Positions 10,138 through 26,713 of a stretch of 44,163 bases of DNA are shown here, piece after piece; the first letter of the stretch is position 1, and the number at the start of each line of letters is the position of its first letter. The notes beneath the pieces were generated by a model. It was not told the DNA's origin. It did no database searches and saw only the letters and a list, made by a program, of their open reading frames with translations. Origin of the DNA: Bifidobacterium breve (GTDB lineage: Bacteria > Actinomycetota > Acidimicrobiia > Acidimicrobiales > Ilumatobacteraceae); assembly GCA_945901725.1 (NCBI GenBank), contig CAMDLK010000008.1, positions 1 through 44,163 of the forward strand. The letters run 5' to 3'. Made by a program: the position numbers and the translations under genes.

Positions 10138-10165
10138 CAACTGTTTGTCCCTGCACGCATACCCT

Positions 10166-10192
10166 TATAAAGTGCCCTTCGAGGGGTCGAAG
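10166..10192 (+). promoter_or_regulatory. Possible promoter and leader hairpin of the rightward operon
   Basis: TATAAA at 10166-10171 is a plausible -10 element, with only a weak -35 upstream. The inverted repeat CTTCGA-GGGG-TCGAAG (10177-10192) follows, close to the expected transcription start, and ends five bases before the ATG at 10198. GAGGGG inside the hairpin is the only ribosome-binding-like sequence, so folding would hide it. This could be an operator or a translational control hairpin. Confidence 0.42.
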
Positions 10193-10197
10193 TTACA

Positions 10198-10656
10198 ATG
10201 ACATCAAATCAAGCGAACAGAAAACTCTCCCTAGAAGACCTCGCTAGCGCGTTTGGTTGGTCCGGCCCTGAAACATCGGCCGAATGGTATCTGCAACCAA
10301 ACAAAACGATTCCCCAGTCTGGCAAACGCCATTTCGATCCAAGCAGGCCCGATGGTAAACACCCGGTACTACTACTTGATAGAAAAATCCAAAAGTCGGA
10401 CCCGCCAACACAGACTTATCCCTGTTGGATACGTAGCGCTACTGTCCCCTCAAGGATCCAACATCTAAAACACAACCACGACGACAATAGGACTTGTGCT
10501 CTCAATGCACTTGGTTGGTTCGTTACTGAAAGCTCTGTGCCAATTAGCAAAGAAGATTTAAAGAACTACTTCTGTGATGAACCCCTAGATTCAAAGTTGC
10601 TTGTTTCTCTTAGACGGCATGCTAAATCACTAGATAAGCAAATCGGATTCACGTGA
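10198..10656 (+). CDS. Hypothetical protein, 152 residues, first gene of the ATPase/restriction operon
   Basis: I do not recognise the family. The N-terminal 60 residues are polar (SLEDLASAFGW and a Trp-containing AEWYLQPNKT). The middle has a strand HPVLLLDRKI followed by PCWIRSATV, and the C-terminal third contains ALNALGWFVTES, VPISKEDLKNYF and LLVSLRRHAKSL. A strand of the type PVLLLD followed by a Gly-Trp turn and a basic terminal helix is loosely reminiscent of PemK-like barrels, but the match is too weak to assert. The stop overlaps the start of the next gene (TGATG), so they are coupled. Expression probably depends on the promoter and hairpin just upstream. Confidence 0.6.
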   Translation: MTSNQANRKLSLEDLASAFGWSGPETSAEWYLQPNKTIPQSGKRHFDPSRPDGKHPVLLLDRKIQKSDPPTQTYPCWIRSATVPSRIQHLKHNHDDNRTCALNALGWFVTESSVPISKEDLKNYFCDEPLDSKLLVSLRRHAKSLDKQIGFT

Positions 10657-11705
10657 TGTCGCACACTATTGAAGACCTGCGGCAGGACCTTTTAAACCTC
10701 GACCGACTACACAAAAAATCACCGCTCTATATCGAAATAAGGCAACTAACTGAGAAAGCACACAGGAAATTATCGGAAAGACTCTCGCATGATTTAACTG
10801 ATTTCGATGACGCATTTCAGAGAACCATGATGTTTCTGACGAAGTCCATAAGCGACAGAAAACCGTCTAGCCCCCTCGAGCTCTATCTAATTCACGAGTA
10901 TGAGCGAAGAAAAGCCATCGGCGAAGAACTACTCATCACAGAGTTTCGAAGAATTCTCTTCACGATCATTAAGAATGACCTTCTGACAGTTCACAACAGT
11001 GGGTACGTGGAATCTCTCGTTGACCGCTCCGTCCGCCTTCTCAAAGAACTATCCACCGTTAGATTTGAAGCGTCCAGCAGCAGTTTCATGATTATCGATG
11101 GACAGGTTCCTGGCCAGCTACCCACACCCAACGACATAGTGGCGGTAGCGAACATATGTTCAAGAATTGCGAAAATACCCCAAACCTCTGAACAGCGAAA
11201 CAGTCCCGTCTATTCGACCCCAAATCTTGAAGTAATTCTCCAAACCCTTATTTCTAGGGTAAATCACTTTAGAAAAGATGATCTTTATGAATTGTTTTCT
11301 TATCTTCTGACATCTTGGCTTCCATCACACCTTTCATCCACTGATGAAACAACTTTCCGCCATGCCGACATTGCAAATAGCTCCGGCCCAGCTGATGCAG
11401 CAATTGGCAATGAGGAATTCTCACTTCAAGCGGCAGACCAAATCTGGCGGGAACTCTCTGAAAATCAAAGACGATTTATGCATGCCCAAACATGGAACGT
11501 TCTTCAAGAAGAGATCGCACACAGGGTTGAATTCATCGACTCTCGAGACCCCAGTCGCTCAAGGACATATTCGCGACCATGGATTGTCCAATTGCAGCAA
11601 TCCACCCTCGAGACACTTCGCAATTTGCTTTCCCCATTCGAATATGATGAGCAACTCGAAATTGTGCGCATCGTGAACGAGATTGCCTCTAACTACCACT
11701 TTTAG
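10656..11705 (+). CDS. Hypothetical helical protein, 349 residues
   Basis: The start at 10656 is taken because the TGATG overlap with the preceding stop is a common coupling arrangement; a GTG at 10653 is also in frame. The protein is largely alpha-helical and charged, with basic segments (RQLTEKAHRKLSERL, HEYERRKAIGEELL) and no membrane segment. Helix-rich regions with a TFRHADIANSSG linker near residue 230 divide it into two lobes of roughly 130 and 120 residues. I see no enzymatic motif. Its fixed place between two other unknown genes and a DUF3696 ATPase suggests a structural or regulatory subunit of one complex. Confidence 0.6.
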   Translation: MSHTIEDLRQDLLNLDRLHKKSPLYIEIRQLTEKAHRKLSERLSHDLTDFDDAFQRTMMFLTKSISDRKPSSPLELYLIHEYERRKAIGEELLITEFRRILFTIIKNDLLTVHNSGYVESLVDRSVRLLKELSTVRFEASSSSFMIIDGQVPGQLPTPNDIVAVANICSRIAKIPQTSEQRNSPVYSTPNLEVILQTLISRVNHFRKDDLYELFSYLLTSWLPSHLSSTDETTFRHADIANSSGPADAAIGNEEFSLQAADQIWRELSENQRRFMHAQTWNVLQEEIAHRVEFIDSRDPSRSRTYSRPWIVQLQQSTLETLRNLLSPFEYDEQLEIVRIVNEIASNYHF

Positions 11706-11709
11706 ACTT

Positions 11710-12408
11710 ATGAACAACTCAACACCTTTAGAGATATTAAAAAATCATCAGCCGTTCTCGACCCTCGCTCCTATCTCGTTGCCCAAAAACGAGATAGAAG
11801 TGGTAGTCGGCCAGATCCGTTCCTTTAGATTTGTCAACTCAGAAAACGAAATCGAACAGCGTTTTGTCCTCGTGACAGCAATGTCGTCCACTACTTCTTT
11901 GATAGTTCAAGGAATGCTTATCGGTACAGACTTTAAACTTTCCGGAAAGAATGACGTGCTGCTCCACGAAGAAGAAAGACCGTCGTTTGAGGCTGTTGTG
12001 GCTCAAACAGACCTGCGGTTTCCTGTGCTCCGCGCCGACCTTGGCGCGCTTTATTCGAATCTCAATGCGGAAACCTTGCAACTTTTTTCCAAAATGAACA
12101 ACTACTCAGGTCGTGATGTTTCACGTTCTGGCGTCCATCGAGACGCTTCCCATCTCATTCGTCAGGATTATCTCAGAGATGAATTAGACGCTGTGCGCTC
12201 AATCACTCAAAGTGCTTTTGCCGCCATGGCAGGTCCTGATTACAAAGCCGAGAAGGTAAAGGAACTTGAGTTGAAGGGATTTCGCTTTGAAGAACGAGCA
12301 TTGCGGGAAAAGTCGGCTACGTATGAAACAAAGCCATCAAGCAATGAGCTTCAAGATCTTCTTCAAAAACGGTCACAAAGACGAGCAAAGGAAATGGTCG
12401 CAGCATGA
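11710..12408 (+). CDS. Hypothetical protein, 232 residues, coupled to the ATPase
   Basis: The start at 11710 lies four bases after the preceding stop; a TTG at 11683 would add nine residues. The N-terminal 115 residues look like a beta-rich domain: EIEVVVGQIRSF, RFVLVTAM, LIVQGMLIGTDFKL, then DLRFPVLRADLGALY. The C-terminal half is helical and ends in a highly charged coil (ELELKGFRFEERALREK, then QDLLQKRSQRRAKEM). No catalytic motif is clear. The last four bases overlap the start of the DUF3696 ATPase, so the two are made together and are likely partners. The beta-rich part could be a distant relative of the PemK-type barrel, but this is speculative. Confidence 0.6.
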   Translation: MNNSTPLEILKNHQPFSTLAPISLPKNEIEVVVGQIRSFRFVNSENEIEQRFVLVTAMSSTTSLIVQGMLIGTDFKLSGKNDVLLHEEERPSFEAVVAQTDLRFPVLRADLGALYSNLNAETLQLFSKMNNYSGRDVSRSGVHRDASHLIRQDYLRDELDAVRSITQSAFAAMAGPDYKAEKVKELELKGFRFEERALREKSATYETKPSSNELQDLLQKRSQRRAKEMVAA

Positions 12409-14486
12409 CCAATAATCAATTCATCAACAATATTCGTGTCAAAAACTTTAAATCCATCACTGACGCCAATATTGATTTGCTTCCACTGAACGTAGTTGTC
12501 GGACGTAATAGCGCCGGTAAGAGTTCGCTCATGCATGCAATTTTGCTAGCAGCTCAGCACCTATCCAGCGATTTCATCTCAGATGAGAGAATCTCTCTGA
12601 ATCGAAACATGGTTAATCTCGGTACATTTCGAGAAGTTCTAAACTTTGCAGAAAATCTTGACTCCTCTGTGCAGATTGGAATTGACACCAAAGACACTTC
12701 TTGGCAAGTCGACTTTGCTCAAAGTTGCAACATTGATGGAACGCCTCGATTTCAATCACGTGAAGCAATGATTAAAAAGATTCAGATCAAGGAATCACCA
12801 TCTGTATCAAATCGGTCACCTCTTAGGTACGTCAATTTCTCTTTTGAAATCTCAGGTTCGCCGGTACGCGTGACACCAGTTCTGCTTCCATTCGGTCCTG
12901 GCAAACGCGCGGAGATGCCTCTGGCTGTCGGTGTTGGGACCATCACATATGCCACCAGCGAGTCGAGTGATGCAATCACACGTACTTTTGAAAATTGCCT
13001 CTTTCTACCCTATGCAGATAAACGCATACATCCATTACCAATGGAGAAGGTTGACTTTTTCCACGTAGCGGTCGAACGATTTTATTCAGCTTGTGAAAGA
13101 CAAGATCGTAGAGCAAAAGCCATGCGACGACGTTCTGGATCGAGGAGTCTTGTCGCTTCCTCCGGTGATCAAAATTCTCCTATTCAACCTCTTGAGGTTT
13201 CGCAATTCTTCTCCTTTTTAGTCACAAATCATTCTGTACGAGAAGAGCCGATACACGTTCCGCAATTTCAAGAAATTACCTCTAAGAAGTTGCACGAGCA
13301 TCTCAATTATCGTGATGATGTCGAGCGAAACGTGACTCGCGTTATGAGACGCATTCGGGATATTGGCTTCCGGCCGTGGGAAATCATTGATGATTACGTA
13401 AATACGTCCGAGAGGCAGGCTAAATCAAGGACTGAATTCCATGCTGATCTTTGTGCTTCTGTGCTCGACTTAGGGCTTTCTGAAGTGAAAAATTTATTAT
13501 TGCCAGTTTTACAATCACTTTATGGTGTTACGTCTCTTCTAGTCCTGAAACCGCTTTCCTTAGAAATTACGGAAGGTGAGGCAGAAACTGATGTAACGGT
13601 GCTCGACGACAACGTGCTCATAGAATTTTTTGAGAGCGGAAGGGACCGTGTCACTAGGTCCGCCAAAAATATCTATTACTTGGGGCCAATCCGCGATGTG
13701 GATTACCCATCTGCTCAGCTACCAGACCCGCGTAATTTAGGCCCTAAGGGCGAACAAGCTGTTGAAGTGCTTGTTCATGAGGCATTGACCGTAAATGATT
13801 TTCCACTTCCCGAAACCTTTCAGGGCTTGTTGAATGGATCATCTACAGCAGTCAATTTTAGTGAAGCTCTTCGTGCTTGGTTAGTCCATTTTGAGATCGC
13901 TAAGGGTGTGATCACAGAAGATCAAGGCCGCGATAAGCCACGAATGGTTGTACAAATAGGTGACCTAAGTAAGCCAATTAATCCCGCCGACAATTCTGTT
14001 GACATTCGATCTGTTGGTCAGGGGCTTTCGCAGTTACTGCCCGTGATTATGCAATGTCTTCTGGCAGCGCCAGGAAACTCGCTAGTGATTATTGAACAGC
14101 CAGAATTACACCTTCACCCGAAGCTTGAATCGCAACTGGCTGATTTCTTCCTCGCATGCGCACGGACTGGACGACAAATCTTTGTGGAAACTCATAGCGA
14201 GCATCTCATCAACCAACTGCGTTTTAGAATTGCAGAAGATGATTCCAGCAAAACTCAAGATCTAGTTCAAGTATTATTTGCTGATCAAGTGGATGGCGTT
14301 ACAAGATTTGAAAAAGCCGAGATTGATCAATATGGAGGCCTAGTTGAAGAACAGTGGCCATCGGGATTTTTGGAACTGAATGTAGTTGCAGCTGAGAGAT
14401 TGATTGATGCTGCGCTTGATAAGCGAATTCACGAACTTGAGTCTGTTGAAGAAGCCCAAGATTCTGACGATGATGACGATTTTTAG
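12405..14486 (+). CDS. RecF/OLD-like AAA ATPase with DUF3696 C-terminus
   Basis: 693 residues. The Walker A motif GRNSAGKS is at 33-40, right after the INNIRVKNFKSI strand typical of SMC/RecF-type ATPases. The Walker B region LVIIEQPELHLHP starts at 560, and the following THSEH (596-600) is the conserved D-loop/H-motif area. The C-terminal stretch IDQYGGLVEEQWPSGFLE matches the DUF3696 pattern. There is no Toprim nuclease domain after it, so it is not a GajA-type OLD nuclease. The tail is acidic (EAQDSDDDDDF). ATPases of this class occur in several phage-defence modules, where they sense or remodel DNA and act through partner proteins. Here the partners would be the three small upstream genes. 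hsdM begins 19 bases downstream. Confidence 0.82.
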   Translation: MTNNQFINNIRVKNFKSITDANIDLLPLNVVVGRNSAGKSSLMHAILLAAQHLSSDFISDERISLNRNMVNLGTFREVLNFAENLDSSVQIGIDTKDTSWQVDFAQSCNIDGTPRFQSREAMIKKIQIKESPSVSNRSPLRYVNFSFEISGSPVRVTPVLLPFGPGKRAEMPLAVGVGTITYATSESSDAITRTFENCLFLPYADKRIHPLPMEKVDFFHVAVERFYSACERQDRRAKAMRRRSGSRSLVASSGDQNSPIQPLEVSQFFSFLVTNHSVREEPIHVPQFQEITSKKLHEHLNYRDDVERNVTRVMRRIRDIGFRPWEIIDDYVNTSERQAKSRTEFHADLCASVLDLGLSEVKNLLLPVLQSLYGVTSLLVLKPLSLEITEGEAETDVTVLDDNVLIEFFESGRDRVTRSAKNIYYLGPIRDVDYPSAQLPDPRNLGPKGEQAVEVLVHEALTVNDFPLPETFQGLLNGSSTAVNFSEALRAWLVHFEIAKGVITEDQGRDKPRMVVQIGDLSKPINPADNSVDIRSVGQGLSQLLPVIMQCLLAAPGNSLVIIEQPELHLHPKLESQLADFFLACARTGRQIFVETHSEHLINQLRFRIAEDDSSKTQDLVQVLFADQVDGVTRFEKAEIDQYGGLVEEQWPSGFLELNVVAAERLIDAALDKRIHELESVEEAQDSDDDDDF

Positions 14487-14505
14487 AAAGTCCTTAGCTA
14501 ACTAA

Positions 14506-16005
14506 ATGCCCCCAAAAAATGAAGAAAATGTGCAGGACCTTGAGCAATGGCTATGGGCCGCTGCAAATATCCTTCGCGGGCCGGTTGACATGGCCGACTT
14601 CAAGGCCTACATCTTTCCGCTCCTCTTTCTTAAGCGCCTTAGTGATGTCTACGACGAAGAGTTTGCAGAAGCTCTTGATCTCTCTAATAACGACGAAGAG
14701 TTTGCACAATTAGCTGAACAGCATCGTTTTCAAATTCCAGAAGGTGCCCACTGGTCCAATATTCGCAAGCTGAATCAAAGCGTTGGTACGGCTATCGGTA
14801 AAGCGATGCGTGCAATTGAGCGTGCTAACCCAAACAACTTATTCCAGATTTTTGGTGACGTTCAATGGACGAACAAAGCGCGACTTCCTGATTCACTTCT
14901 TCGAGACCTGGTGGAACATTTCAGTGGAAAGAATCTCTCGGCAAGCGTTGTACCAGACGACATGTTGGGCGACGCATACGAGTACCTGATCAAGAAATTT
15001 GCCGATAAATCGCGCAAGAGTGCCGGTGAGTTCTTCACCCCTCGTTCGGTCGTTGAACTGATGATCAACATTCTTGATCCGAGGCCAGGCGAAACCATCT
15101 ACGACCCATCGTGCGGTAGTGGGGGAATGCTGATTGAGGCAGTCAAACACGTAAAGGAAGAAGGCGGAGACCCGCGTCTTTTGTTTGGCCGTATCTATGG
15201 TCAAGAAAAGAACTTGAACACTGCATCCATCGCGCGCATGAACTTAATCCTGCATGGCATGGAGGATTTCAGCATCGCAACAGCCGACACGCTACGTGAA
15301 CCCCAATTTGTCCAGCGTGACACTCTTATGACTTTCGACTGCGTTATCGCTAATCCACCGTTCTCACTGAAGTCGTGGGGCGAAGATCTGTGGGAGAACG
15401 ATAGGTGGGGGCGAAACATCGCCGGAACTCCACCTGCCTCAAATGGCGACTGGGCATGGTTACAACACATGATTTCGTCAATGTCGACCGGCAACGGACG
15501 CATGGCAGTCGTCGTGCCCCTCGGTGCATTGTTTCGCGGTCAGAGCGAAGGTCGAATTCGCAGCGCGATTCTGGACATGGACATCATTGACACAGTGATT
15601 GAACTAGGCAGTAATTTGTTCTACGGAGCCTCTATTCCGGCATGCATCGTTGTTGCGAGGTCACGTAAACCCAAGAATCGTAAGAACTCTGTGCAGTTCA
15701 TTAATGCATCCGACCTTCTTCTTAAAGGTCGAAATCAGAACACGCTTGAGAATGAACACATCAAGCAAATTTTTGAGTTGTATCAAAGTCATGACGAAGT
15801 CGAACTGTTCTCGCGAATTGTTCCGAATGATGTAATTCGTGCCAACAACGCTGACTTATCTCCAAACAAATATGTGACAAAACATATGGCAGAGACACTT
15901 ATTTCTGTTGATGAAGCAATGTCAGCACTCCGCACCGCTGCAGATGCAGTCAAGCAGTCGGAACAACGTGTCTTACAAATTCTTACCAACTGGAAACTAC
16001 TGTGA
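14506..16005 (+). CDS. hsdM: Type I restriction-modification methyltransferase subunit, first copy
   Basis: 499 residues. The N-terminal HsdM helical domain (LEQWLWAAANILRG, then FLKRLSDVYDEEF) is followed by an N6-adenine methyltransferase domain. The SAM-binding motif DPSCGSGG is at 200-207 and the catalytic motif NPPF at 283-286, both intact. It transfers a methyl group from S-adenosylmethionine to adenine in the site chosen by HsdS. A second, different HsdM follows immediately, overlapping by four bases from a GTG start. The C-terminus is a helical HsdS-binding region. No strong ribosome binding site is seen, so expression may depend on read-through from the ATPase gene. Confidence 0.92.
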   Translation: MPPKNEENVQDLEQWLWAAANILRGPVDMADFKAYIFPLLFLKRLSDVYDEEFAEALDLSNNDEEFAQLAEQHRFQIPEGAHWSNIRKLNQSVGTAIGKAMRAIERANPNNLFQIFGDVQWTNKARLPDSLLRDLVEHFSGKNLSASVVPDDMLGDAYEYLIKKFADKSRKSAGEFFTPRSVVELMINILDPRPGETIYDPSCGSGGMLIEAVKHVKEEGGDPRLLFGRIYGQEKNLNTASIARMNLILHGMEDFSIATADTLREPQFVQRDTLMTFDCVIANPPFSLKSWGEDLWENDRWGRNIAGTPPASNGDWAWLQHMISSMSTGNGRMAVVVPLGALFRGQSEGRIRSAILDMDIIDTVIELGSNLFYGASIPACIVVARSRKPKNRKNSVQFINASDLLLKGRNQNTLENEHIKQIFELYQSHDEVELFSRIVPNDVIRANNADLSPNKYVTKHMAETLISVDEAMSALRTAADAVKQSEQRVLQILTNWKLL

Positions 16006-17480
16006 CAAATAAACTGATCACTCTGTCAGAGTTAGAGGCGTACCTGTGGGGTGCTGCAAACCTTATGCGTGGCTCTATTGATGCCGGCGAATACAAGAAT
16101 TACATTTTCCCTCTCCTCTTTGTTAAGCGACTCAGTGACGTGTACGACGAAGAATTTGAAGAGGCCCTTGAAGCCAGTGGTAATGACGAAGAGTTTGCCG
16201 TGCTTCCTGAACAACATGCATTCCAGGTGCCTAAAGAAGCTCATTGGAAACAGATCCGCGAAAAAAATGCGGAGGTGGGTAGAGCCATTCAGAACGCAAT
16301 GCGAGCAATTGAAACTGCAAATCCTCGCCTTGAGGGCGTGTTCGGTGATGCTCAATGGACTAATTCGAATCGACTCAGTAACAGCATGTTGCGAAATCTC
16401 ATCGAACACTTCTCAATGTACGACTTACGCATTGCAAATGTGCCTGAAGATGAACTTGGTCAGGGATACGAATTTCTGGTGAAAAAATTTGCCGATGATG
16501 CCGGCCACACTGCGCAAGAGTTCTATACCAATCGCACCGTTGTGCACCTGATGACAGAGTTGTTACAGGTGAAGCCAGCAGAGAGCGTGTACGACCCAAC
16601 GTGTGGCACAGGCGGCATGCTTTTGTCCGCATCTCGTTATCTGAAGTCAAAGAACAAGGAACATCGCAATTTGCGTCTGTATGGACAAGAGCGAAATGTA
16701 ACGACCTCTTCCATTGCACGCATGAACTTGTTTCTGCACGGAATTGAGGACTTTGAAATAGCCCGCGCAGATACGTTGGAAGACCCTCATTTTATTGAAA
16801 ATGACCAGTTGCGAACATTTGATGTGGTTCTTGCTAACCCTCCTTATTCCATCAGTCAGTGGAATCGCGACGCGTGGAAGTCAGACAGGTGGGGTCGTAA
16901 TACGTTTGGTACTCCGCCGCAAGGCCGGGCTGATTACGCATTCTTTCAACACATAGTCTCCAGCATGGACAAGAAAACAGGACGTTGTGCAATTCTGTTT
17001 CCCCACGGAGTCCTATTTCGAAAAGAAGAAGTAGCTATGCGTCGCGCCATGGTGGAAGCCGATGTGATTGACACTGTCATAGGGCTCGGACCAAATTTGT
17101 TTTACAACGCACCTATGGAATCATGCATTGTTATTTGTAGGTCAAAGAAACCAAAAGCCCACAAGGGAACCATCTTGTTCATCGATGCCGTTAACGACGT
17201 CACAAAACAACGTAGTAACTCGTATCTCAGCGATGAGAACCAAAATAAGATCACCGCGGCATTTAACTCAGAAGAAGATGTTGTCGCCTTCTCAAAGCGG
17301 GTCAAGATTGAAGATATCGAGGCTGAAAACTTTGACCTGACAGTTCACCGCTACGTTGAGCGCGTGCTGGCAGGCGGCGGGCTCTCGGTTGTCGACGCGA
17401 TCTTAGGTTTTAAGGACGTTCATTTGACAATGAACAAAGCAGTTGCGCACGTATTAGGCAGCTCTGCGGGGCCGTCATGA
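16002..17480 (+). CDS. hsdM: Type I restriction-modification methyltransferase subunit, second copy
   Basis: 492 residues from a GTG that overlaps the previous stop. The domain order is the same as in the first copy: LEAYLWGAANLMRG, KRLSDVYDEEFEEAL, motif DPTCGTGG at 198-205 and NPPY at 279-282. Both methyltransferase motifs are complete, so it should be active. It is clearly homologous to the first copy along its whole length, but many residues differ (NPPY instead of NPPF, EFYTNRTVV instead of EFFTPRSVV). It is therefore an old duplication rather than a copy made in assembly. Type I methyltransferases normally contain two identical HsdM; here a mixed pair is possible. It overlaps hsdS by four bases. 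Confidence 0.92.
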   Translation: MTNKLITLSELEAYLWGAANLMRGSIDAGEYKNYIFPLLFVKRLSDVYDEEFEEALEASGNDEEFAVLPEQHAFQVPKEAHWKQIREKNAEVGRAIQNAMRAIETANPRLEGVFGDAQWTNSNRLSNSMLRNLIEHFSMYDLRIANVPEDELGQGYEFLVKKFADDAGHTAQEFYTNRTVVHLMTELLQVKPAESVYDPTCGTGGMLLSASRYLKSKNKEHRNLRLYGQERNVTTSSIARMNLFLHGIEDFEIARADTLEDPHFIENDQLRTFDVVLANPPYSISQWNRDAWKSDRWGRNTFGTPPQGRADYAFFQHIVSSMDKKTGRCAILFPHGVLFRKEEVAMRRAMVEADVIDTVIGLGPNLFYNAPMESCIVICRSKKPKAHKGTILFIDAVNDVTKQRSNSYLSDENQNKITAAFNSEEDVVAFSKRVKIEDIEAENFDLTVHRYVERVLAGGGLSVVDAILGFKDVHLTMNKAVAHVLGSSAGPS

Positions 17481-18556
17481 GCAGTACTCGAGTCAAATTT
17501 GGTGACGTTGTAATAAACGTCAATGAAACTTTACGAGACGAAAGTGAACATAGTTTTTCAAGAGTTGTGGGTTTGGAGCATATTGACTCGGGAGACTCTG
17601 AATTGCGTCGGTGGGACGAGTTGTCGTCTCTGCCTGAAGGCACAAGTTTTAAGAGAATTTTTCGCAGAGGACATGTTTTGTTTGGGAAACGGCGGGCGTA
17701 TCAGCGCAAAGTTGCTGTTGCGTCGTTCGATGGTATTTGTTCCAGTGACATCTTGGTTTTTACCCCATCTGACAAACGTTTAAATCCGGGGTTTTTGTTG
17801 TACATAGTCCAGAGCGAAGGTTTTTTCGCGCACGCACTACAGACCTCATCCGGATCTCTTTCGCCGAGAACAAGATGGCAAGATCTGGCTTCTTTTGAGT
17901 TTGAATTACCGTCGTTAGACGAACAAGAACGAATCCTCGAGTTGCTCTCTGCAGTTGACGCTCATGCTGAAGCACTGCGCAACCAAGCGAATGTTGCAGA
18001 AGATTCCCGACGAGTGGTTTTACATGATCTGTTAACTACAGCCGGCGAGGATTGGACAGAAACGACTCTTGGGCTCCTTGTATCCCTTAGGACAGGGAAA
18101 CTGGATGTCAATGCAGGTGTTGAAGATGGAGAGTTCCCGTTCTTCACTTGCTCTCGGGATACGTACAAAATCGATGTGGCCGCGTTTTCGGGCAAATCTG
18201 TGATTGTCGCTGGCAATGGTGATTTGAACGTCAAGTACTGCGAGGGAGAATTCAACGCTTATCAGCGAACGTATATTCTGCAAGCAATTGATGAATCTGT
18301 GCTGAATCCAATCTTTCTGTTTCATTTCATGGACAAGTATCTCGAGATTCTACGAAATGACACTCAAGGCTCGACCATCCAGTACCTAAAGAAAGCGCAA
18401 TTCACTGAAGCACCGATTTCTCTACCGCCGTTGGTGGAGCAGAAGCGGATTGTCGATGAGATTTCAAAGATTGATGCACTCATTCAAGAGACCAACTCAG
18501 CATTGCTGGCTACTCAGCAACTTCGTGCCGCACTTCTCAATAAGGAGATTTCTTAA
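17477..18556 (+). CDS. hsdS: Type I restriction-modification specificity subunit
   Basis: 359 residues with two target-recognition domains, roughly 1-145 and 188-330. Each is followed by a conserved helical spacer starting at LPSLDEQERILELL and LPPLVEQKRIVDEI. Each target domain reads one half of a bipartite DNA site, and the helices set their distance. The subunit also positions HsdM and HsdR. Its size is near the lower end for the family but both halves are present. With two different HsdM proteins upstream and only one HsdS, each half-site could be served by a different methyltransferase. The stop overlaps the HsdR start (TAATG). Confidence 0.9.
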   Translation: MSSTRVKFGDVVINVNETLRDESEHSFSRVVGLEHIDSGDSELRRWDELSSLPEGTSFKRIFRRGHVLFGKRRAYQRKVAVASFDGICSSDILVFTPSDKRLNPGFLLYIVQSEGFFAHALQTSSGSLSPRTRWQDLASFEFELPSLDEQERILELLSAVDAHAEALRNQANVAEDSRRVVLHDLLTTAGEDWTETTLGLLVSLRTGKLDVNAGVEDGEFPFFTCSRDTYKIDVAAFSGKSVIVAGNGDLNVKYCEGEFNAYQRTYILQAIDESVLNPIFLFHFMDKYLEILRNDTQGSTIQYLKKAQFTEAPISLPPLVEQKRIVDEISKIDALIQETNSALLATQQLRAALLNKEIS

Positions 18557-21453
18557 TGACCGGATTCAATGAAGAAAATGCTGTTGAACAGCCAGTTATC
18601 GATGCAATGGTTGATGTTGGCTGGACGTATCGTTCGGGTCCATCGCTGGCCAGGACTACAAGTGATGTTCTTAATGAGAGTGATCTGCGGGTGGCGCTGA
18701 TTCGGCTCAACCCTGAGATTGCAAAAGATCCGAGTCGCGCTGATGATGTGATTTATGCATTGCGCAGTGTTCTTATTGGTGTTTCTGCTGCTGGATTAGT
18801 TCGAGCTAACCAAGAATTTGCTAAATGGTTAAAGGGTGAAGTCACTCGACCGTTTGGGCCGAATGGCGAACATGTGACCGTGCGTCTAGTGGACTTTGAA
18901 AATGTGGGCGCAAATGATTTTGTTGTGGCCAATCAAGTCACATACAGCTTCGGACCGGAACGTCGATTTGATGTGATTGGTTATGTAAATGGCATTCCAT
19001 TTGTTGTTGGGGAAGCCAAAACTCCTGTGCGACCCGCTGTGACGTGGGTTGATGGCGCAATTCAAGTGAATTCTGACTATGAACTGAATATTCCTTCGTT
19101 CTTTGTTCCGAACGTCTTCTCGTTCGCTACCGATGGTCGGGATCTGCGTTTCGGAACTGTGCAAATGCCCGTTAATCAGTGGGGTCCATGGCGCACTGGT
19201 GACAACGTGGACGTGGGTTTACGTGCGGTGCGTGATTCGGTGAAGTCCCTTCTCTCTCCTACAGTTGTGTTGGATATTGCGCGTAATTTCACCGCCTATG
19301 CGACTGATCGCCGTCAACGCATGATTAAGTTGATCTGTCGTTACCAGCAGTACGAAGGTGTAAACCGCATCGTTGAACGCGTAGTCGAGGGAAAGATTCG
19401 CAAAGGGCTCATCTGGCACTTCCAAGGTTCTGGAAAGAGTTTGTTGATGGTTTTTGCCGCGAACAAATTGCGCATGTCTCCCGAATTGGCTAATCCCACA
19501 GTGGTCATTGTTGTAGACCGCATCGAACTCGATAGTCAAATCACTGCCACATTCAACGCAGCTCAAGTAGAGAATGTTATCACCGCGGATACCCGTAAGG
19601 AACTCATGGAGCTTCTTGAGCGCGATACTCGAAAAGTCATCATCACCACTATTCACCGTTTTGGTGAAGCAGAGGGCGTTCTGAACGATCGCGGCAACAT
19701 CGTGTTGCTGGTCGATGAGGCTCATCGGACTCAAGAAGGCGACCTCGGCCGCAAGATGCGAGACGCTGTTCCGAACGCATTCCTTTTTGGTCTCACCGGA
19801 ACACCCATTAACTCACAGGACCGAAATACTTTCTTTGCTTTCGGCGCAGAAGAGGACACAGGCGGTTACCTCAGTCGTTATTCGTTTGAAGACTCAATTC
19901 GTGACGAGGCAACTCTGCCAATTCACTTCGAGCCACGATCAATTGATTTACGTATTGATCGTTCAGAGTTGGATCGTGAATTCGAAGAACTGGTGAAGGA
20001 CTTGTCTGTCGAAGATAGGGCAGAGGTGTCCCGTCGTGCAGGAAAATTCTCGTTGCTGGTGAAGTCACCTGCGCGCATTCGCGCCGTAATTCAGGACATC
20101 GCGAAGCATTACCGTGAAAAGATTGAACCAAACGGATTCAGCGCACAGATTGTCACTATCGACCAGGAAGCTTGTGTTTTGTACAAGCAAGCACTGGATG
20201 AGATCTTGCCGCCAGAGTCGAGCGCTGTAGTCGTCTCGCTTGGTCAGGGTGTGCCTCAAGCATGGAAAGACGCGCATGGCCGAAGCGCCGATGAGGAGAA
20301 ACGTCTTCTCGATAATTTCCGTGACCCTAATCACCCATTAAAGATTCTCATCGTCACTGCACGTCTATTGACTGGTTTCGATGCACCCAATTTGCAGTGT
20401 ATGTACCTGGATAAGCCATTGCGTGACCACACGCTGTTACAGGCAATTTGTCGCACGAATCGTCCGGCAGAAGGAAAGACGTTTGGCTTGGTGGTTGACT
20501 ACCTTGGAATCTTTGATGATGTAGCGCAGGCGCTTGCTTTCGACGAGAAGTCTGTGCAAACAGTCGTCACGAACCTGGCTGAAATGAAGAAAATGCTCGA
20601 ACCAGCTATTCAGAAGGCACTGGCGTTTTTCCCTGGTGTTGACCGAACTGATTTCGGATGGGAAGGATTAGCGCACGCGCAGCAGAAGTTGCCTGACAAC
20701 GAAACACGTGATGCATTTGCTGCTGTAATGCACGAGTTGATGAAGGTGTGGGAGGCTCTGTCGCCTGATCCAATCCTTACTCCGTTTGAAGCGGACTATC
20801 GCTGGTTGTGTCAGGTTTATGACTCAGTTCGGCCTGTCTCTGGTAATGGAAAATTGCTGTGGCACACATTCGGGCCAAAAACTATTGAGTTGATTCATCG
20901 TCATGTTGGCGTTCGTAACGTCAATGACGATATTGAGACCTTGATTCTTGATGCTGATGTAATGGATGAACTTGCAAAGGACCCGAACAAGAAAGTTGTC
21001 GAAGTGACAATTCGAATTTCTGCTCGACTACGCAAGCACCCCAATGACCCAAAGTTTGTGGAACTGTCAGAACGCCTCGAACGGCTGCGTGAACGTCATG
21101 AACAAGGGCTTCTGGCATCTATTGATTTTTTGAAGTCATTGCTTGAATTGGCTCGCGATGTGGTTGCGGCTGAGCAAGAGGCTCCACCAGAAGAACGCGC
21201 TGAAGAAGGAAAGACCGCTTTGACCGAATTATTCGCTGATGTGAAGAATCCAGGCACACCAATTATTGTTGAGCGCGTGGTGCAAGACATCGACGAGATC
21301 GTAAGAAAAGTTCGGTTCGACGATTGGCAACAAACTGATGCAGGCGAGCGTGAAGTGCAGCGTGTACTGCGCCGAACATTGTTGAAGTACAAACTTCATA
21401 ATGATCAGAACTTGTTTGATCGCGCTTACGATTATGTACGTAGGTATTACTGA
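18556..21453 (+). CDS. hsdR: Type I restriction endonuclease/translocase subunit
   Basis: 965 residues. The N-terminal nuclease domain shows the PD-(D/E)xK pattern: D139 in RRFDVIGY, then E153-A-K155. The SF2 translocase domain has Walker A GSGKS at 291-295 and DEAH at 387-390, followed by LTGTPI (motif III) and the helicase motif segment around ALLRTRLLTGFDAP-like residues (VTARLLTGFDAPNLQ). The C-terminal helical part is the usual HsdM/HsdS contact region. It pulls DNA after recognition of unmethylated sites and cuts it. The length is in the normal range for HsdR. All catalytic motifs seen are intact, so the locus should be restriction-competent. Confidence 0.93.
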   Translation: MTGFNEENAVEQPVIDAMVDVGWTYRSGPSLARTTSDVLNESDLRVALIRLNPEIAKDPSRADDVIYALRSVLIGVSAAGLVRANQEFAKWLKGEVTRPFGPNGEHVTVRLVDFENVGANDFVVANQVTYSFGPERRFDVIGYVNGIPFVVGEAKTPVRPAVTWVDGAIQVNSDYELNIPSFFVPNVFSFATDGRDLRFGTVQMPVNQWGPWRTGDNVDVGLRAVRDSVKSLLSPTVVLDIARNFTAYATDRRQRMIKLICRYQQYEGVNRIVERVVEGKIRKGLIWHFQGSGKSLLMVFAANKLRMSPELANPTVVIVVDRIELDSQITATFNAAQVENVITADTRKELMELLERDTRKVIITTIHRFGEAEGVLNDRGNIVLLVDEAHRTQEGDLGRKMRDAVPNAFLFGLTGTPINSQDRNTFFAFGAEEDTGGYLSRYSFEDSIRDEATLPIHFEPRSIDLRIDRSELDREFEELVKDLSVEDRAEVSRRAGKFSLLVKSPARIRAVIQDIAKHYREKIEPNGFSAQIVTIDQEACVLYKQALDEILPPESSAVVVSLGQGVPQAWKDAHGRSADEEKRLLDNFRDPNHPLKILIVTARLLTGFDAPNLQCMYLDKPLRDHTLLQAICRTNRPAEGKTFGLVVDYLGIFDDVAQALAFDEKSVQTVVTNLAEMKKMLEPAIQKALAFFPGVDRTDFGWEGLAHAQQKLPDNETRDAFAAVMHELMKVWEALSPDPILTPFEADYRWLCQVYDSVRPVSGNGKLLWHTFGPKTIELIHRHVGVRNVNDDIETLILDADVMDELAKDPNKKVVEVTIRISARLRKHPNDPKFVELSERLERLRERHEQGLLASIDFLKSLLELARDVVAAEQEAPPEERAEEGKTALTELFADVKNPGTPIIVERVVQDIDEIVRKVRFDDWQQTDAGEREVQRVLRRTLLKYKLHNDQNLFDRAYDYVRRYY

Positions 21454-21458
21454 CTTTG

Positions 21459-21932
21459 ATGTACCTCAACAGTTTTCGTATCTCAATAGCTTTGGAAGAT
21501 GAGGCCACAGGAGGAATGCGACTTCTTGTCGTTCATGAATTGCCCTTTAGTCATTATGAAGATCCAGAAGTAGATGGACAACCAGAATGGTTGCCAGCAG
21601 GAGCTGACGATCGGCGTTCGACTATTGAAGGTACTTTGTATTGCTCCGGACGAACTTGGATAAACATCAAAGCGCAAACTGTGGCTCAAGGGGCCCAGTG
21701 GATTGATGCAGTTTCCGTAAAGAAAGAGCGTTATTGGTCGTGCAAACCGAAGATAACTGTTCTTGAATTGCAGCACAATGGAATTTGCCACGCAACTGAA
21801 GAGACTCGAATTTGGATCAATGAAAACGGGGCAGACTCGGCACGACCACGCCGTATAGAAGGCAGTGTTGACGAGTTGCTTGTCCGGGTAACGGTCCGCA
21901 CTGGTCGCGTAAACGCCATCAATCTTGACTAG
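21459..21932 (+). CDS. Hypothetical protein, last gene of the restriction operon
   Basis: 157 residues from the ATG at 21459, five bases after the HsdR stop (a TTG at 21456 is also in frame). I do not recognise it. The sequence is beta-rich with regularly spaced aromatics: FRISIALEDEATGGMRLLVVHELPF, then TWINIKAQTVAQGAQW, KERYWSCKPKI and ELLVRVTVRTGRV. This is compatible with a small all-beta or sandwich fold. There is no signal peptide or membrane segment. It is transcribed with hsdMMSR and its stop codon lies in the loop of the terminator, so it belongs to that unit rather than to the NYN gene. Confidence 0.6.
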   Translation: MYLNSFRISIALEDEATGGMRLLVVHELPFSHYEDPEVDGQPEWLPAGADDRRSTIEGTLYCSGRTWINIKAQTVAQGAQWIDAVSVKKERYWSCKPKITVLELQHNGICHATEETRIWINENGADSARPRRIEGSVDELLVRVTVRTGRVNAINLD

Positions 21933-21946
21933 GGCCAAGATTTTTT
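21921..21946 (+). terminator. Intrinsic terminator of the ATPase/type I restriction operon
   Basis: The arms AATCTTG (21921-21927) and CAAGATT (21936-21942) pair perfectly with an eight-base loop, and T runs to 21946. The stop codon of the preceding gene is in the loop. This is the clearest intrinsic terminator in the window and closes the unit that begins near 10198. Confidence 0.75.
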
Positions 21947-21985
21947 CTGACACCCGCTGGAGTAAGGTCTCTTTAACTAATTGCC

Positions 21986-22498
21986 ATGATGCAATTACCT
22001 TCATTCCCCGCTTTCGACTCCTCGACGTCAGAGCTTCAGTTTTTTTCTTCCTCAAAGATCAAACGAGCTCATGTAGTTGTTGACCTAGAAAATCTCTGTG
22101 GGAACTCTCATAATGTCTCCCGTTTCAGTGCTCAGGCGTACAGCGCTTTGAACAGTCTCATTTCCCTCAACGGGGCACAAGTAGTGGTTGCCGTGGGAAT
22201 CAGCGCTTGGAATCAATGTCCCAATATTGGTTTTACATGGCCCCATGCTCGACTCTTGGTCGGACGCGGGATTGATGGCGCAGATCTGCGGCTAATTGAA
22301 GATCTCCTTGAAGAGCCTCAAGCTAAGCGTTCCTCGCATGTAGTCATCGCTAGTGGCGACGGACGATTTTCTGCTCCCGCGCGTGAATTGCGTGAAAGCG
22401 GTGTTCATGTCACCGTCGTGGCAAACGCCTTTACGCTCTCACGAAAGCTACGAGACAATGCTGATCAAGTTCTCTATTTTCCTCCTCTTGCTGCCTGA
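21986..22498 (+). CDS. NYN-domain protein, putative RNase
   Basis: 170 residues. After a polar N-terminal tail the fold of the NYN/PIN-like family is visible: a strand HVVVDLENLCG with D33 and N36, the segment GRGIDGADLRLIEDLL with D97 and D100, and HVVIASGDGRFSA with D125, followed by a strand VHVTVV. These acidic residues form the metal site in PIN-like RNases. Such proteins cut RNA or act on tRNA, and some are stress or defence effectors. The gene starts 40 bases after the terminator and is followed by a 144-base gap, so it is likely a separate unit. Either of two adjacent ATG codons (21986, 21989) could be the start. The target RNA is unknown. Confidence 0.8.
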   Translation: MMQLPSFPAFDSSTSELQFFSSSKIKRAHVVVDLENLCGNSHNVSRFSAQAYSALNSLISLNGAQVVVAVGISAWNQCPNIGFTWPHARLLVGRGIDGADLRLIEDLLEEPQAKRSSHVVIASGDGRFSAPARELRESGVHVTVVANAFTLSRKLRDNADQVLYFPPLAA

Positions 22499-22534
22499 CA
22501 ATTAATTGCGCAAGGACCCTTACCTAGAACGTAC

Positions 22535-22569
22535 GAACGAGATCGTTCAATAACTGACTACCAGTAGTC
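22535..22569. promoter_or_regulatory. Two adjacent inverted repeats upstream of the AlkB operon
   Basis: GAACGA-GA-TCGTTC (22535-22548) and GACTA-CCAG-TAGTC (22556-22569) are perfect dyads in the 144-base gap before the gene at 22643. A third weaker one, CCGC-N8-GCGG, ends at the start codon. No T-run follows, so operators are more likely than terminators. Confidence 0.4.
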
Positions 22570-22642
22570 GTCACCTCTATAGACAAAGAAAGCGAAAGGA
22601 TTCAATATCTTCCCCACACCCACTAAACCGCGAATAACTGCG

Positions 22643-23203
22643 GTGTCAGCGCTTCGGAAACTTCCGTTAGCGCGCATGTTCGAAGATTTCGACGATGGAA
22701 TGTTGATTGAAGTTGTACTTCTTGACTTCATAGTTTGTGACCGCAACACGAAAGCGGTTGTTTTATTCATCCCACACGGTGATCCGTGCAAAGTGGATAC
22801 CGTCGACTTTGAACCAGTGATGGTTCCTGGGCATTGGTTTAGCCAGCTCATGCCGCTGTCAATCTTCCTTGACATTCCGGAAGATGCCTCTGCGCTTTCA
22901 CCAGTATGGGATCCGCAGGAAGACGGGCCAGGCACGCCAGTTGAGAGCGTGAAGCCTGGTGCAGGCGAAGAACTTGCAGTGCGTTGGCGCGCAAACAAGC
23001 GCCCCATCGCGACGACAAAGGATTACTTCACGCAGTGCTACCCGCACGCTCCTGCGCATTTGTTGAACATTGGCCTAGACGCAATCGAAGCTCTTGCTAG
23101 CGGTCGCTTTACGAAGGCGTCTCGCGGACGCATTGCAACCTTTTGCGAGCTCATGTCTCGCCATCTCTCGTCCTTAGATTCGCCGACCGATCAGCCTGAG
23201 TAG
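22643..23203 (+). CDS. Hypothetical protein, first gene of the AlkB/helicase operon
   Basis: 186 residues from a GTG; an ATG at 22676 would give 175 residues and neither has a good ribosome binding site. I do not recognise the family. The first 90 residues are hydrophobic-acidic with strands MLIEVVLLDFIVCD and AVVLFIPHG, then a proline-rich stretch (SPVWDPQEDGPGTP) leading to a basic segment (WRANKRP). The end is a helical part with a repeated Ser/Leu tail. No catalytic motif is obvious. It stops eight bases before the AlkB gene and is in the same orientation, so it probably works with the dioxygenase and the helicase fusion. Confidence 0.55.
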   Translation: MSALRKLPLARMFEDFDDGMLIEVVLLDFIVCDRNTKAVVLFIPHGDPCKVDTVDFEPVMVPGHWFSQLMPLSIFLDIPEDASALSPVWDPQEDGPGTPVESVKPGAGEELAVRWRANKRPIATTKDYFTQCYPHAPAHLLNIGLDAIEALASGRFTKASRGRIATFCELMSRHLSSLDSPTDQPE

Positions 23204-23210
23204 TCTCAGC

Positions 23211-23822
23211 ATGGGGCATGTGATGAATCTCTTTATGCAAGACAAAGTTGAGTTGTTGCCGTATGACTTTGGTGCGGTACTGCACTCTGACGTGTGGAGG
23301 AATGATGAATGTCGAACAATTACTAGTCGACTCACACATGAACTTGATTGGGCACAAGTATTTGTCGAAGTATTCAATCGCAGAGTGGCTCAGCCTCGTT
23401 TGACCTGTTGGTATGGCGACCCAGGGAAGAACTATTCATATTCCGGTACTCGTCTCAACCCACTCGACTGGACCTCTCTCCTGTCTGAGATCAAACAAAA
23501 GACTGAAGTAGTTTCCAATGTCACCTTTAACTCGGTTCTTGGAAATTTGTATCGAACTGGATCAGATGGTGTTTCCTGGCATTCTGACAACGAGCCAGAA
23601 CTTGGTCTAAATCCGACCATAGCTTCGGTGACTTTTGGTGCAACGCGTCGTTTTGATATGCGTCATCGCGAAACCAAGGAGATAATTCATATCGACCTGA
23701 CTCCAGGGTCGATTCTTGTTATGTCTGGTGAGAGCCAGTCCAAATGGCAGCACCAAATTGCAAAGACAAAGAAGGAAGTTGCCCCCCGAGTCAACTTGAC
23801 TTTTAGGACGATTCATGTCTGA
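23211..23822 (+). CDS. AlkB-like 2-oxoglutarate/Fe(II) dioxygenase
   Basis: 203 residues. The iron ligands are H124xD126 in VSWHSDNEPELG and H181 in KWQHQIAK. R193 would bind 2-oxoglutarate and R199 lies where AlkB proteins use a second Arg (RxxxxxR). The spacing and the NLYRTGSDGVSWHSD and SKWQHQI segments resemble AlkB homologues that demethylate alkylated bases in DNA or RNA. The product releases formaldehyde and CO2. The gene overlaps the next one by eight bases, so the dioxygenase and the methyltransferase-helicase fusion are coupled. A demethylase made with a methyltransferase-like protein is an unusual pairing. The substrate (DNA, RNA or protein) is unknown. Confidence 0.88.
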   Translation: MGHVMNLFMQDKVELLPYDFGAVLHSDVWRNDECRTITSRLTHELDWAQVFVEVFNRRVAQPRLTCWYGDPGKNYSYSGTRLNPLDWTSLLSEIKQKTEVVSNVTFNSVLGNLYRTGSDGVSWHSDNEPELGLNPTIASVTFGATRRFDMRHRETKEIIHIDLTPGSILVMSGESQSKWQHQIAKTKKEVAPRVNLTFRTIHV

Positions 23823-26631
23823 TTTTCTGAAGACTATTCAGTCCGATGTTGTCCGTGCAGCGAGAGAGTCTTTCGGAGCAGATTGGTCAACTGCGACGCT
23901 GCAGCCAGCGCTAATTGAAATGCGCAAGTCATACGCAGCAATTACGGGCCCAGATTTCTCCAGCTCAGAAATTCGCTTGGCTTACGCCCTCGCATCCCAC
24001 CCGTATCACGCCTTTATGGCCTACGAGTTGTTTAGCCAATGCGTACATGTTCTCAAATCTCATACACCAGGAAAATTCTCCGCAGTAATTCTTGGTGCCG
24101 GACCTGGAGCAGAAGCGATTGCATTGATTCGAGTTTTGGCGGAAAAAGTCCCAGATTTGAATCACATTTCACTGACGCTGATTGATAAGGAACCAGGATG
24201 GTCTAGAACTCGACGTGTCACGTTAGAGCAAACAGCACAGCATTGGTGGCAAGGGCAACTGACATTGAACGAGGTCACGGCTGACCTTGCAACAGATGAA
24301 GGAAGACAGACAGCAATCAATTCGCTTGTTGACGTCGATCTTGTCATTGCGCAGGCCGTGCTCACGGAAATAGTTGAAGGAAACGAATCTGTCAATCTTC
24401 TCGCAGATCTTGTAAACAATTTTTCTGCGGATTCCCTGCTTTTGTTGTGCGATTTCACCAAGATGAAAGGCCTTCACAATTGGATACGTGAACTTGACAA
24501 GATCGATTCGATACGAACAGTCCTTGCTCTTCAGCATCGTTTTCCCATGCCTTCATGCCACGACGATGTGAAGCCGCTGTTTGCGTCGGAGGATTATTTA
24601 CGGGAGCGTGGTCAGGTGACCGTCACAGCGCGACTTTATTCTCGTCCTGGCTGGCATCCACCAGTCATAAATGTGAGCGATGAATTTATCCCTACAGAAG
24701 GACAGAAATCAGCGCTTGATTCTTTTGCCACTTTTGTGCAAGGTAATTCAGCGAATACATTTCTTCTTGAAGGTCCGGCCGGCACGGGAAAAACTGAAAT
24801 CATGCGACGCATGGCTTCAATTGCAACTACTGAGGGCATGTCGGTATCGCTTTGGGCGCCGACTGGACAAGCTGCTGTACGTTTATCGGCCCGGACAAAC
24901 CTTCCAGCCAGCACGATTCATTCGGCTCTCTTCGAACGATCAGGGCGCACAGACAATGACGCAGAGGATTTTGAATGGCCACCGACAATCATTTTCACTC
25001 GTCGACAATTGGACTATTCGCAACATGTTGTCTTCATAGATGAAGCATCAATGATTGGTGATCGGGTGGTGATGCACGATGATCAACCTCCAGAATTAAT
25101 GTTTGAAGATGGTCGACTATTGACTCACATTCTCGATGGAGTTGTAAAGAACAATGGAAAAGTTGTCTTCGTTGGAGATAGTTGCCAGCTTCCACCGATA
25201 GACGAAGAGTATCCAGTTGCACTCGACCGTAAGTACCTCGAATCGCGCGGATGTGAAGTTGTTGAATCAAAATTGACAGCGGTTACTCGCGTGAAAGACG
25301 ACTCTGAAATACTCAATTTTTCGATGAACTTACGTGGTCACGTTTTGGCAGGGGAACATGGGATTACGGGTTTAGATTTTAAGGTTGACGGCGACGTTGT
25401 GCCTGTCTCTACTTTTGATCTGCCCTTTCTTGTCGATCAATTCAAGAAGGGAGACGCTGTCGCACTTGCCGGCAGGAATGTTGATGTAGCGAACGCAAAT
25501 ATGCTCATTCGCGGTTCTCTTGGACGTCTTAGTGAACTTCCAGAATCAGACGATCGACTAGTCCTGACCAAAGGAAATGATTCTCTCGGTTTGATGAATG
25601 GCACTGAAATCAATGCTCAAACATTGATTGGTGACGTAGTGGAAGTATCTCTACGAAATAGGCGTACAAAAGAATTGGAAGTAGTGCGACTACAAAAGGC
25701 TCTATTGACGATGAGATTACCTTCAGGCGATGTTTTGGAGTTCACCGCAACAATCGTGGTCGACACGCTTGGTGCTGCTAGTTCTGATTTACTGTCCATC
25801 ATTAGGCGAGTCCTGTGGGTGGATTTTCAGATTCGCATGCGAGCAGCTGGGATCGATAAAAAGCAGGAATCCTTTTGGCAAATGTACGAGGGTGACGAAA
25901 GAGCGAATGCGTTGGTTAGTTGCTACAGCTATGCGCGGACCCTTCACAGAGCCCAAGGCGGCGAGTGGAAATCTGTTGTTGTAGATGTTCAGAGTCTCCT
26001 GCCGGTTCGCCCAGGAACGTCACGGTATGCGTATTCGGCAATAACTCGCGCGAAGGAAGCGCTGTACCTGCGCGGATGGCCGCGAGGTGAAAGAGAGCCC
26101 CGAACTCATGAACAACTTGCTGAAGCTCCGATGTCGCTATTGCAGATTGCTCTAAATCGTAGATTTACTTTTCAAGCGCTTCCCCAGTCAACGACGACTG
26201 TCCAATTGTCACCGGAGGACAATTCGAGTGGTCTTCGTGTGAACCTCTACGACGGGACAAAGGGCATTACTTTCAACTCTCAAAATGGAACCCCAAACGA
26301 GACCAATGCAGTCGCCAGGGCGCTCGGAGTTTGGTCCAAGTTGGAGTCGGTACGAGGTCGACATGAAGTGCCTGTACGGCTTGAAGCAGGAATGGCTCGA
26401 CTCGAGTCAATACTCGAGGAATCAAACATTGACTTATTCGTAGTAAGGCGAGGAAATGCCACGCGAGAAGTTGAGATTTACACTTTTCTAAATAATGATT
26501 TTGCTATTTTCCGTTCATTTTGGACCGATCTAGGTGGCCTAAATCTCAAGAGCTTTAGATCAGTTGACACAAATTCGACTTCCCTTCGAGACTTAGTGTT
26601 CTCGCTGGTAACGCGAGTCTTCTCGGACTGA
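23815..26631 (+). CDS. Methyltransferase-like domain fused to SF1 (RecD/Pif1-type) helicase with a novel C-terminal domain
   Basis: 938 residues. Residues about 85-275 form a Rossmann methyltransferase-like domain with VILGAGPGAEA (91-101) as SAM motif I, then LTLIDKEPG. Residues about 290-760 are an SF1 helicase: FIPTEGQKSALDSF, Walker A GPAGTGKT at 320-327, VVFIDEAS at 405-412, VFVGDSCQLPPI at 451-462 and a UvrD_C_2-type end with YARTLHRAQGGEWKSVVVDV and SAITRAKEALYL near 741-752. Residues 849-938 are a separate domain whose only visible relative is the 102-residue protein at 2339-2647. The helicase probably unwinds nucleic acid with ATP; whether the first domain methylates anything is unknown. 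The overlap with AlkB couples expression. The end lies 31 bases before the first base of the next open frame and no terminator is evident. Confidence 0.85.
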   Translation: MSDFLKTIQSDVVRAARESFGADWSTATLQPALIEMRKSYAAITGPDFSSSEIRLAYALASHPYHAFMAYELFSQCVHVLKSHTPGKFSAVILGAGPGAEAIALIRVLAEKVPDLNHISLTLIDKEPGWSRTRRVTLEQTAQHWWQGQLTLNEVTADLATDEGRQTAINSLVDVDLVIAQAVLTEIVEGNESVNLLADLVNNFSADSLLLLCDFTKMKGLHNWIRELDKIDSIRTVLALQHRFPMPSCHDDVKPLFASEDYLRERGQVTVTARLYSRPGWHPPVINVSDEFIPTEGQKSALDSFATFVQGNSANTFLLEGPAGTGKTEIMRRMASIATTEGMSVSLWAPTGQAAVRLSARTNLPASTIHSALFERSGRTDNDAEDFEWPPTIIFTRRQLDYSQHVVFIDEASMIGDRVVMHDDQPPELMFEDGRLLTHILDGVVKNNGKVVFVGDSCQLPPIDEEYPVALDRKYLESRGCEVVESKLTAVTRVKDDSEILNFSMNLRGHVLAGEHGITGLDFKVDGDVVPVSTFDLPFLVDQFKKGDAVALAGRNVDVANANMLIRGSLGRLSELPESDDRLVLTKGNDSLGLMNGTEINAQTLIGDVVEVSLRNRRTKELEVVRLQKALLTMRLPSGDVLEFTATIVVDTLGAASSDLLSIIRRVLWVDFQIRMRAAGIDKKQESFWQMYEGDERANALVSCYSYARTLHRAQGGEWKSVVVDVQSLLPVRPGTSRYAYSAITRAKEALYLRGWPRGEREPRTHEQLAEAPMSLLQIALNRRFTFQALPQSTTTVQLSPEDNSSGLRVNLYDGTKGITFNSQNGTPNETNAVARALGVWSKLESVRGRHEVPVRLEAGMARLESILEESNIDLFVVRRGNATREVEIYTFLNNDFAIFRSFWTDLGGLNLKSFRSVDTNSTSLRDLVFSLVTRVFSD

Positions 26632-26713
26632 TTTCTCAGATCGCGGCACCGTCGCAGTCCTTGTGTTTTCTTCCACTATGGGTCCGAGCGAGTGGGGAGG
26701 TACTGTCGTTTCC

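Follow-up and report, generated by a model that had tools for sequence, protein, structure and literature searches.

Which genes form a functional unit when an AlkB dioxygenase gene runs directly into a gene for a methyltransferase-like helicase? The question is raised by three genes on one strand of contig CAMDLK010000008.1, of which a stretch of 44,163 nucleotides (nt), here called the window, was analyzed; the genome is a draft in 112 contigs and 87% complete. The original prediction for this locus treated gene 1, the AlkB gene, and a gene for a fusion of an S-adenosylmethionine (SAM)-binding-type N-domain, a superfamily 1 (SF1) helicase, and a novel C-domain as one system. The analysis reported here points to a smaller unit. 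What is conserved is AlkB together with the N-domain, not all three genes, and the module is best read as a writer-eraser or sequential-modification pair acting on nucleic acid, probably RNA, plausibly in genome conflict.

AlkB and its methyltransferase-like partner

The three open reading frames (ORFs; Table 1) were confirmed as real genes, codon statistics giving a coding signal only in the assigned frame in all three cases. They are tightly spaced, with a gap of 7 nt between gene 1 and the AlkB gene and then, as predicted and confirmed by the ORF coordinates, an overlap of 8 nt between the AlkB gene and the gene for the 938-aa fusion protein. The AlkB protein scores 106.7 bits against PF13532 (cut-off, 31.2) and thus belongs to the AlkB family, and the complete ligand set claimed for it was found in full, with H124, D126, and H181 for iron and R193 for 2-oxoglutarate; R199 is likewise present. 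The closest solved structures are those of ALKBH3 (expect value [E], 4.8e-35) and also ALKBH2. A second AlkB of the same genome, encoded on another contig (G000:C88:3737-4270), is no close relative of the island copy.

The N-domain was modeled with AlphaFold from an alignment of its relatives, giving a predicted local distance difference test (pLDDT) of 86 and a predicted template modeling score of 0.87; for the full 938 aa, modeled without an alignment, pLDDT was 34.6. The top VIA-align matches of the N-domain model are human METTL17 and yeast Rsm22 (Z scores of 19 to 21 for residues 1 to 290), which superpose with root mean square deviations of 3.2 to 3.6 over 250 to 267 residues at 7 to 13% identity, followed by a group of small-molecule methyltransferases with Z scores of at most 16.4. 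A plain Foldseek search returned mixed class I methyltransferases, to which nearly all of the structural matches listed belong. In the model, motif I (G94-A-G96-P) comes after strand 1, and strand 2 terminates in D124; a glycine motif after strand 1 and an acidic residue ending strand 2 are the usual layout of the SAM site in class I methyltransferases. Residues Y57, G94, G96, D124, and W129 are invariant in all 20 family sequences, as are E185 and D213 in the 19 that cover them. The model supports assignment of the N-domain to the class I SAM-methyltransferase fold, so the predicted SAM-binding type holds as a description of its fold.

Domain libraries capture this component poorly. Neither PADLOC nor NCBIfam holds a model for it, and whereas four of six family members match Methyltransf_34 (PF11312) with a best E of 2.2e-5, the window domain reaches only 12.9 bits, far under the cut-off of 26. 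Bmt6, which with Bmt5 forms a set of yeast 25S ribosomal RNA (rRNA) methyltransferases producing 3-methyluridine, is presumably a member of that family. Near the presumed SAM site, the alignment columns at V91, G98, A159, and V182 contain cysteine in 12 to 17 of the 20 members, mostly cyanobacterial; the window protein has no cysteine at these positions. The cyanobacterial form could possibly contain a metal or iron-sulfur site.

With the N-domain alone as a sequence query, no relatives were found in the genus, in the phylum of the window, among viral contigs, or in an initial GTDB scan, either because they have diverged too far or because they are absent from these sets. The family was found via the neighbors of the nearest AlkBs: on cyanobacterial plasmids and one phage-like contig, AlkB is adjoined by a gene for a protein of ~290 aa that aligns to the N-domain over its length. 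Compared directly with these relatives by BLAST, the window protein gave E values down to 2.5e-13 among the GTDB loci and 7.9e-17 at a locus of the survey described below. The genome collections searched represent each species by a single genome and do not include metagenomes. Within them, three cyanobacterial members used as queries in a GTDB scan yielded 18 loci, in 15 of which AlkB is encoded directly upstream of the methyltransferase-like gene, as in the window. To guard against any bias from starting with AlkB neighbors, the family profile alone was then run against 386 cyanobacterial genomes; it identified 15 clear places in 14 genomes, 12 of them with AlkB within 1.5 kb. In the phylum of the window, the profile matched 1 of 296 genomes, namely, that of the window itself, and none of the 295 others.

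The pairing extends to plasmid pSYSA of the model strain Synechocystis PCC 6803. AlkB comes first in the majority of loci and in the window; the methyltransferase-like gene comes first on the Nostoc plasmid, the phage-like contig, and at two more survey loci. An overlap of the two genes occurs in the window and also, with 4 nt, at locus L014. The window AlkB is 42 to 54% identical to the paired cyanobacterial AlkBs, and the paired AlkBs cluster on the tree, with 4 label changes compared with 9.5 in shuffles and none of 500 shuffles as low. Since the branches leading to the window sequences are long and their placement among the cyanobacterial relatives is unsure, we claim no donor lineage. Because AlkB lies nearby in most places of the AlkB-blind survey and in both gene orders, while a multi-megabase genome contains about one AlkB, random adjacency is no serious rival explanation of the pair. 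In linking AlkB to the N-domain, the original prediction is thus supported.

Two side observations concern individual loci. At L136 (8001-8893), AlkB is adjoined by a methyltransferase-like gene that falls into two ORFs and is probably broken in this genome. The Nostoc flagelliforme genome G762, from which locus L135 derives, has ~15 AlkB matches on many contigs, several with internal stops, and AlkB may be a passenger of a multiplying mobile element there.

Helicase, gene 1, and the surrounding island

No other locus examined contains the exact trio of gene 1, AlkB, and the helicase fusion, and relatives of gene 1 are found beside no other AlkB locus examined; gene 1 has no family match, only marginal scores. 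The three-gene system and the expected co-occurrence of its members thus reduce to the AlkB/methyltransferase-like pair. As AlkB is joined to this helicase at no other locus examined, the helicase is one of several variable add-ons. The others, frequent in cyanobacteria, include an N-terminal hydrophobic segment with a coiled coil on the methyltransferase-like protein (loci L123 and L126 to L129), a C-terminal coiled coil with a hydrophobic segment (L130, L131, and L134), and tetratricopeptide repeats (TPR; L125). The hydrophobic segments suggest, in a reading made by eye, that the first two groups are membrane-anchored forms of the AlkB partner. Only in the window is the domain extended by a helicase and an orphan C-domain, although such fusions may be more frequent than this sample of one genome per species shows. 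Two genes that follow the Picosynechococcus pair have helicase-like motifs when read by eye, but they match neither Pfam (at 1e-3) nor PADLOC and are not counted as a second helicase association.

The predicted SF1 helicase is confirmed by a full motif set (GPAGTGKT at 320-327, DEAS at 409-412, GDSCQLPP at 454-461, HRAQGGEW at 711-718, and AITRA at 742-746) and by a match to the PADLOC candidate defense family PDC-M16A (E, 1.6e-76); it also matches Pfam AAA_30 and UvrD_C_2 and the RecD2 structure 3e1s (E, 1.4e-11). The likeness to PDC-M16 lies in this M16A helicase core. In contrast to the window protein with its methyltransferase-like N-domain and AlkB neighbor, M16A relatives on plasmids differ in their N-terminal region or lack one, and a partner gene follows downstream. 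No PDC-M16B partner adjoins the window helicase, its neighbors being AlkB and the conserved chromosomal MoxR ATPase gene. At 6017-8886, a DUF6308 protein gene is followed by a TPR protein gene that lies 15 kb from the helicase and matches PDC-M16B very weakly (E, 0.011); by sequence, a distant M16-type partner may be present elsewhere in the island. A scan of viral contigs based on M16A and generic P-loop patterns returned only distant helicases. PDC-M16A-type helicases on a Shewanella LC6 plasmid (L047) and a Runella plasmid (L042) lie between type I HsdS and HsdR genes and adjoining a type III-B clustered regularly interspaced short palindromic repeats (CRISPR) locus.

The novelty of the C-domain was upheld insofar as it matches nothing in Pfam or NCBIfam, but a relative occurs in the same window: an ORF near the other end of the island is 49% identical at the amino acid level (aligned at 2378-2644). 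This is the sole relative found, and no copy was found in 148 other related genomes. Identity with the M16A C-terminal repeat was not supported (profile comparison probability, 0.6%; no significant match). The orphan domain lies near both island ends in one orientation, as a separate ORF at one end and as the helicase C terminus at the other, which could be a trace of a related insertion that entered this site before.

The genes lie in an accessory island flanked by sdhB (747-1523) and a MoxR-type ATPase gene. These two flanking genes are only 30 to 33 nt apart in three close sister species, where they are 88 to 91% identical to the window at the nucleotide level and the whole 25.2 kb is absent; sdhB and the MoxR gene are arranged likewise, with gaps of less than 100 nt, in two species of the genus that are less closely related. 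The G+C fraction of the island is 0.482, that of the flanks 0.505 to 0.510. The island is horizontally acquired and rich in defense genes. Its cargo includes a type I restriction-modification operon, an AAA_15 ATPase, an NYN-domain protein, and a VIT/VWA protein. The restriction-modification operon (14506-18556) encodes two different HsdM proteins in tandem, followed by one HsdS and one HsdR, and directly 5′ of it lies the gene for the 693-aa AAA_15/OLD-like ATPase (12405-14486), which matches the defense models NsnB, HEC-03B, and AriA. Elsewhere, type I restriction genes adjoin the Nostoc plasmid pair, and HmaB/HmaC adjoin the Picosynechococcus pair, so that the defense context is good for these two pairs and for the window island.

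Table 1. Positions of the island, the three genes, and their domains within the window
Feature	Position	Strand	Description
Accessory island	1524..26698		~25.2 kb, from the end of sdhB to the MoxR-type ATPase gene (from 26699)
Stand-alone C-domain homologue	2339..2647	+	102-aa ORF near the other end of the island
Gene 1	22643..23203	+	186 aa, GTG start, no assigned family, coding; 7 nt 5′ of AlkB
AlkB-family Fe(II)/2-oxoglutarate dioxygenase, ALKBH3-like	23211..23822	+	203 aa; ligands H124, D126, H181, R193
Fusion protein	23815..26631	+	938 aa; N-domain, SF1 helicase, orphan C-domain
Class I SAM-methyltransferase-fold domain, METTL17/Rsm22-like	23815..24684	+	aa 1-290; homologous to stand-alone AlkB partners
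SF1 helicase core, PDC-M16A/RecD2-like	24685..26085	+	~aa 291-757; PADLOC, Pfam, and RecD2 matches
Orphan C-domain	26359..26628	+	aa 849-938, ~90 aa; no Pfam/NCBIfam match

Candidate functions of the pair

Gene content, motifs, fold, conserved pairing, island, and patchy spread are shown by the data; RNA as the substrate, catalysis by the methyltransferase-like domain, joint action, and a role in defense are inferred. In the mechanism that we propose, the core is a two-component module of AlkB and a METTL17/Rsm22-like methyltransferase-fold protein, carried by an accessory, horizontally moving operon, with the second component fused in the window to a PDC-M16A-type SF1 helicase. The methyltransferase-like domain would recognize and probably methylate a structured nucleic acid, RNA being favored; the helicase would translocate along this nucleic acid and open it; and AlkB would act on this substrate in single-stranded form, oxidizing a methyl group so that it is erased or converted further. 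In the window, the role of the module would lie in conflict with phages or other elements. RNA is indicated because METTL17 and Rsm22, the closest in fold, are described as rRNA-binding assembly factors.

We tentatively favor, as close to an even proposition, that AlkB and an active methyltransferase-like domain act jointly, with RNA or single strands as the substrate and in an accessory, probably conflict-related setting. Full reversible methylation, in which one mark, placed on RNA or single-stranded DNA by a METTL17/Rsm22-like writer, is removed by an AlkB eraser, as a system that moves among bacteria, plasmids, and phages, has interchangeable modules (helicase, coiled-coil/membrane segment, or TPR), and serves genome conflict, is unlikely. 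Several points weigh against the favored joint action. The domain may bind without methylating, since the role described for METTL17/Rsm22 in rRNA assembly is architectural (PMC9892005). The helicase fusion was seen once; two genomes have AlkB on a contig other than that of the methyltransferase-like gene, and one draft shows no AlkB at all. The defense context is not universal, because several cyanobacterial pairs sit among ordinary metabolic genes, such as those for glycogen synthase and cobalt chelatase. No account of the pair was found in the open literature; an earlier description in subscription papers is possible.

METTL17 and Rsm22 themselves are described as rRNA-binding assembly factors of the mitoribosomal small subunit with an iron-sulfur cluster (PMC9892005, PMC11046306). 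The window domain shares their overall fold, as its best structural match, but the four conserved cysteines and 4Fe-4S cluster were not recognized in the window protein, and its genomic partner is AlkB.

The best-surviving alternative, which we consider somewhat unlikely, is alkylation repair with a noncatalytic adaptor: the METTL17-like domain would serve as an RNA- or DNA-binding platform, the helicase would open the duplex, and AlkB would repair chemically alkylated bases. The human ALKBH3-ASCC3 system provides the precedent, as an ALKBH3-like dioxygenase cooperating with a helicase in alkylation repair; ALKBH3 associates physically with ASCC3, and its repair is faster in the presence of this helicase (review, PMC11065319). 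The nearest solved structure to the window AlkB is indeed that of ALKBH3, AlkB and helicase share one operon, and METTL17/Rsm22 is a structural rRNA factor (PMC9892005). In contrast to ALKBH3-ASCC3, the window helicase belongs to SF1 and carries a methyltransferase-like domain, and a helicase of this kind is missing from the other AlkB/methyltransferase-like pairs. Furthermore, the genome already owns a second AlkB, the patchy spread over plasmids, phage, and island is unusual for housekeeping repair, and the motif I glycines and D124 are invariant, as expected if SAM is still bound.

Sequential modification, a branch of the favored joint action that is weighed here separately, appears improbable in its ALKBH8-like form, in which the methyltransferase-like domain would methylate a base and AlkB would hydroxylate it to give a hypermodified transfer RNA (tRNA) or rRNA. 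ALKBH8 combines AlkB and a methyltransferase in one protein acting on the tRNA wobble uridine. The window resembles it in coupling AlkB to a SAM-methyltransferase fold, and a conserved one-to-one pairing that occurs in either gene order is consistent with two steps in a single pathway. Unlike in ALKBH8, however, the genes are separate, AlkB is ALKBH3/2-like by sequence, and the methyltransferase-like domain has METTL17/Rsm22 as its nearest match in fold and is fused to a helicase; no ALKBH8-type RNA-binding domain was matched by Pfam in the window proteins, and the accessory spread does not suggest core tRNA modification. Plant flexivirus replicases contain a methyltransferase, AlkB, an SF1 helicase, and a polymerase. 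They unite the same three activities (see also PMC544882), but within one viral polyprotein whose methyltransferase is of another kind, and the association would be convergent at most.

Coincidence, with the products of all three genes acting independently as residents of a defense island, is highly improbable and largely refuted for AlkB and the N-domain by the AlkB-blind survey, the two gene orders, and the 8-nt overlap, while gene 1 may still be such a coincidental neighbor, even though islands gather unrelated genes and neither gene 1 nor the helicase stands beside other AlkBs.

Bacterial AlkB is usually read as a lone repair enzyme. The conserved pair, present in cyanobacteria, in the host of the window from a different phylum, and on a phage-like contig, suggests that random chemical damage is not the target of every AlkB, with some working instead on a mark set by an enzyme or on RNA that a dedicated partner delivers. 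If this is true, bacteria and their mobile elements would own a nucleic acid methylation circuit carried by a small two-gene operon.

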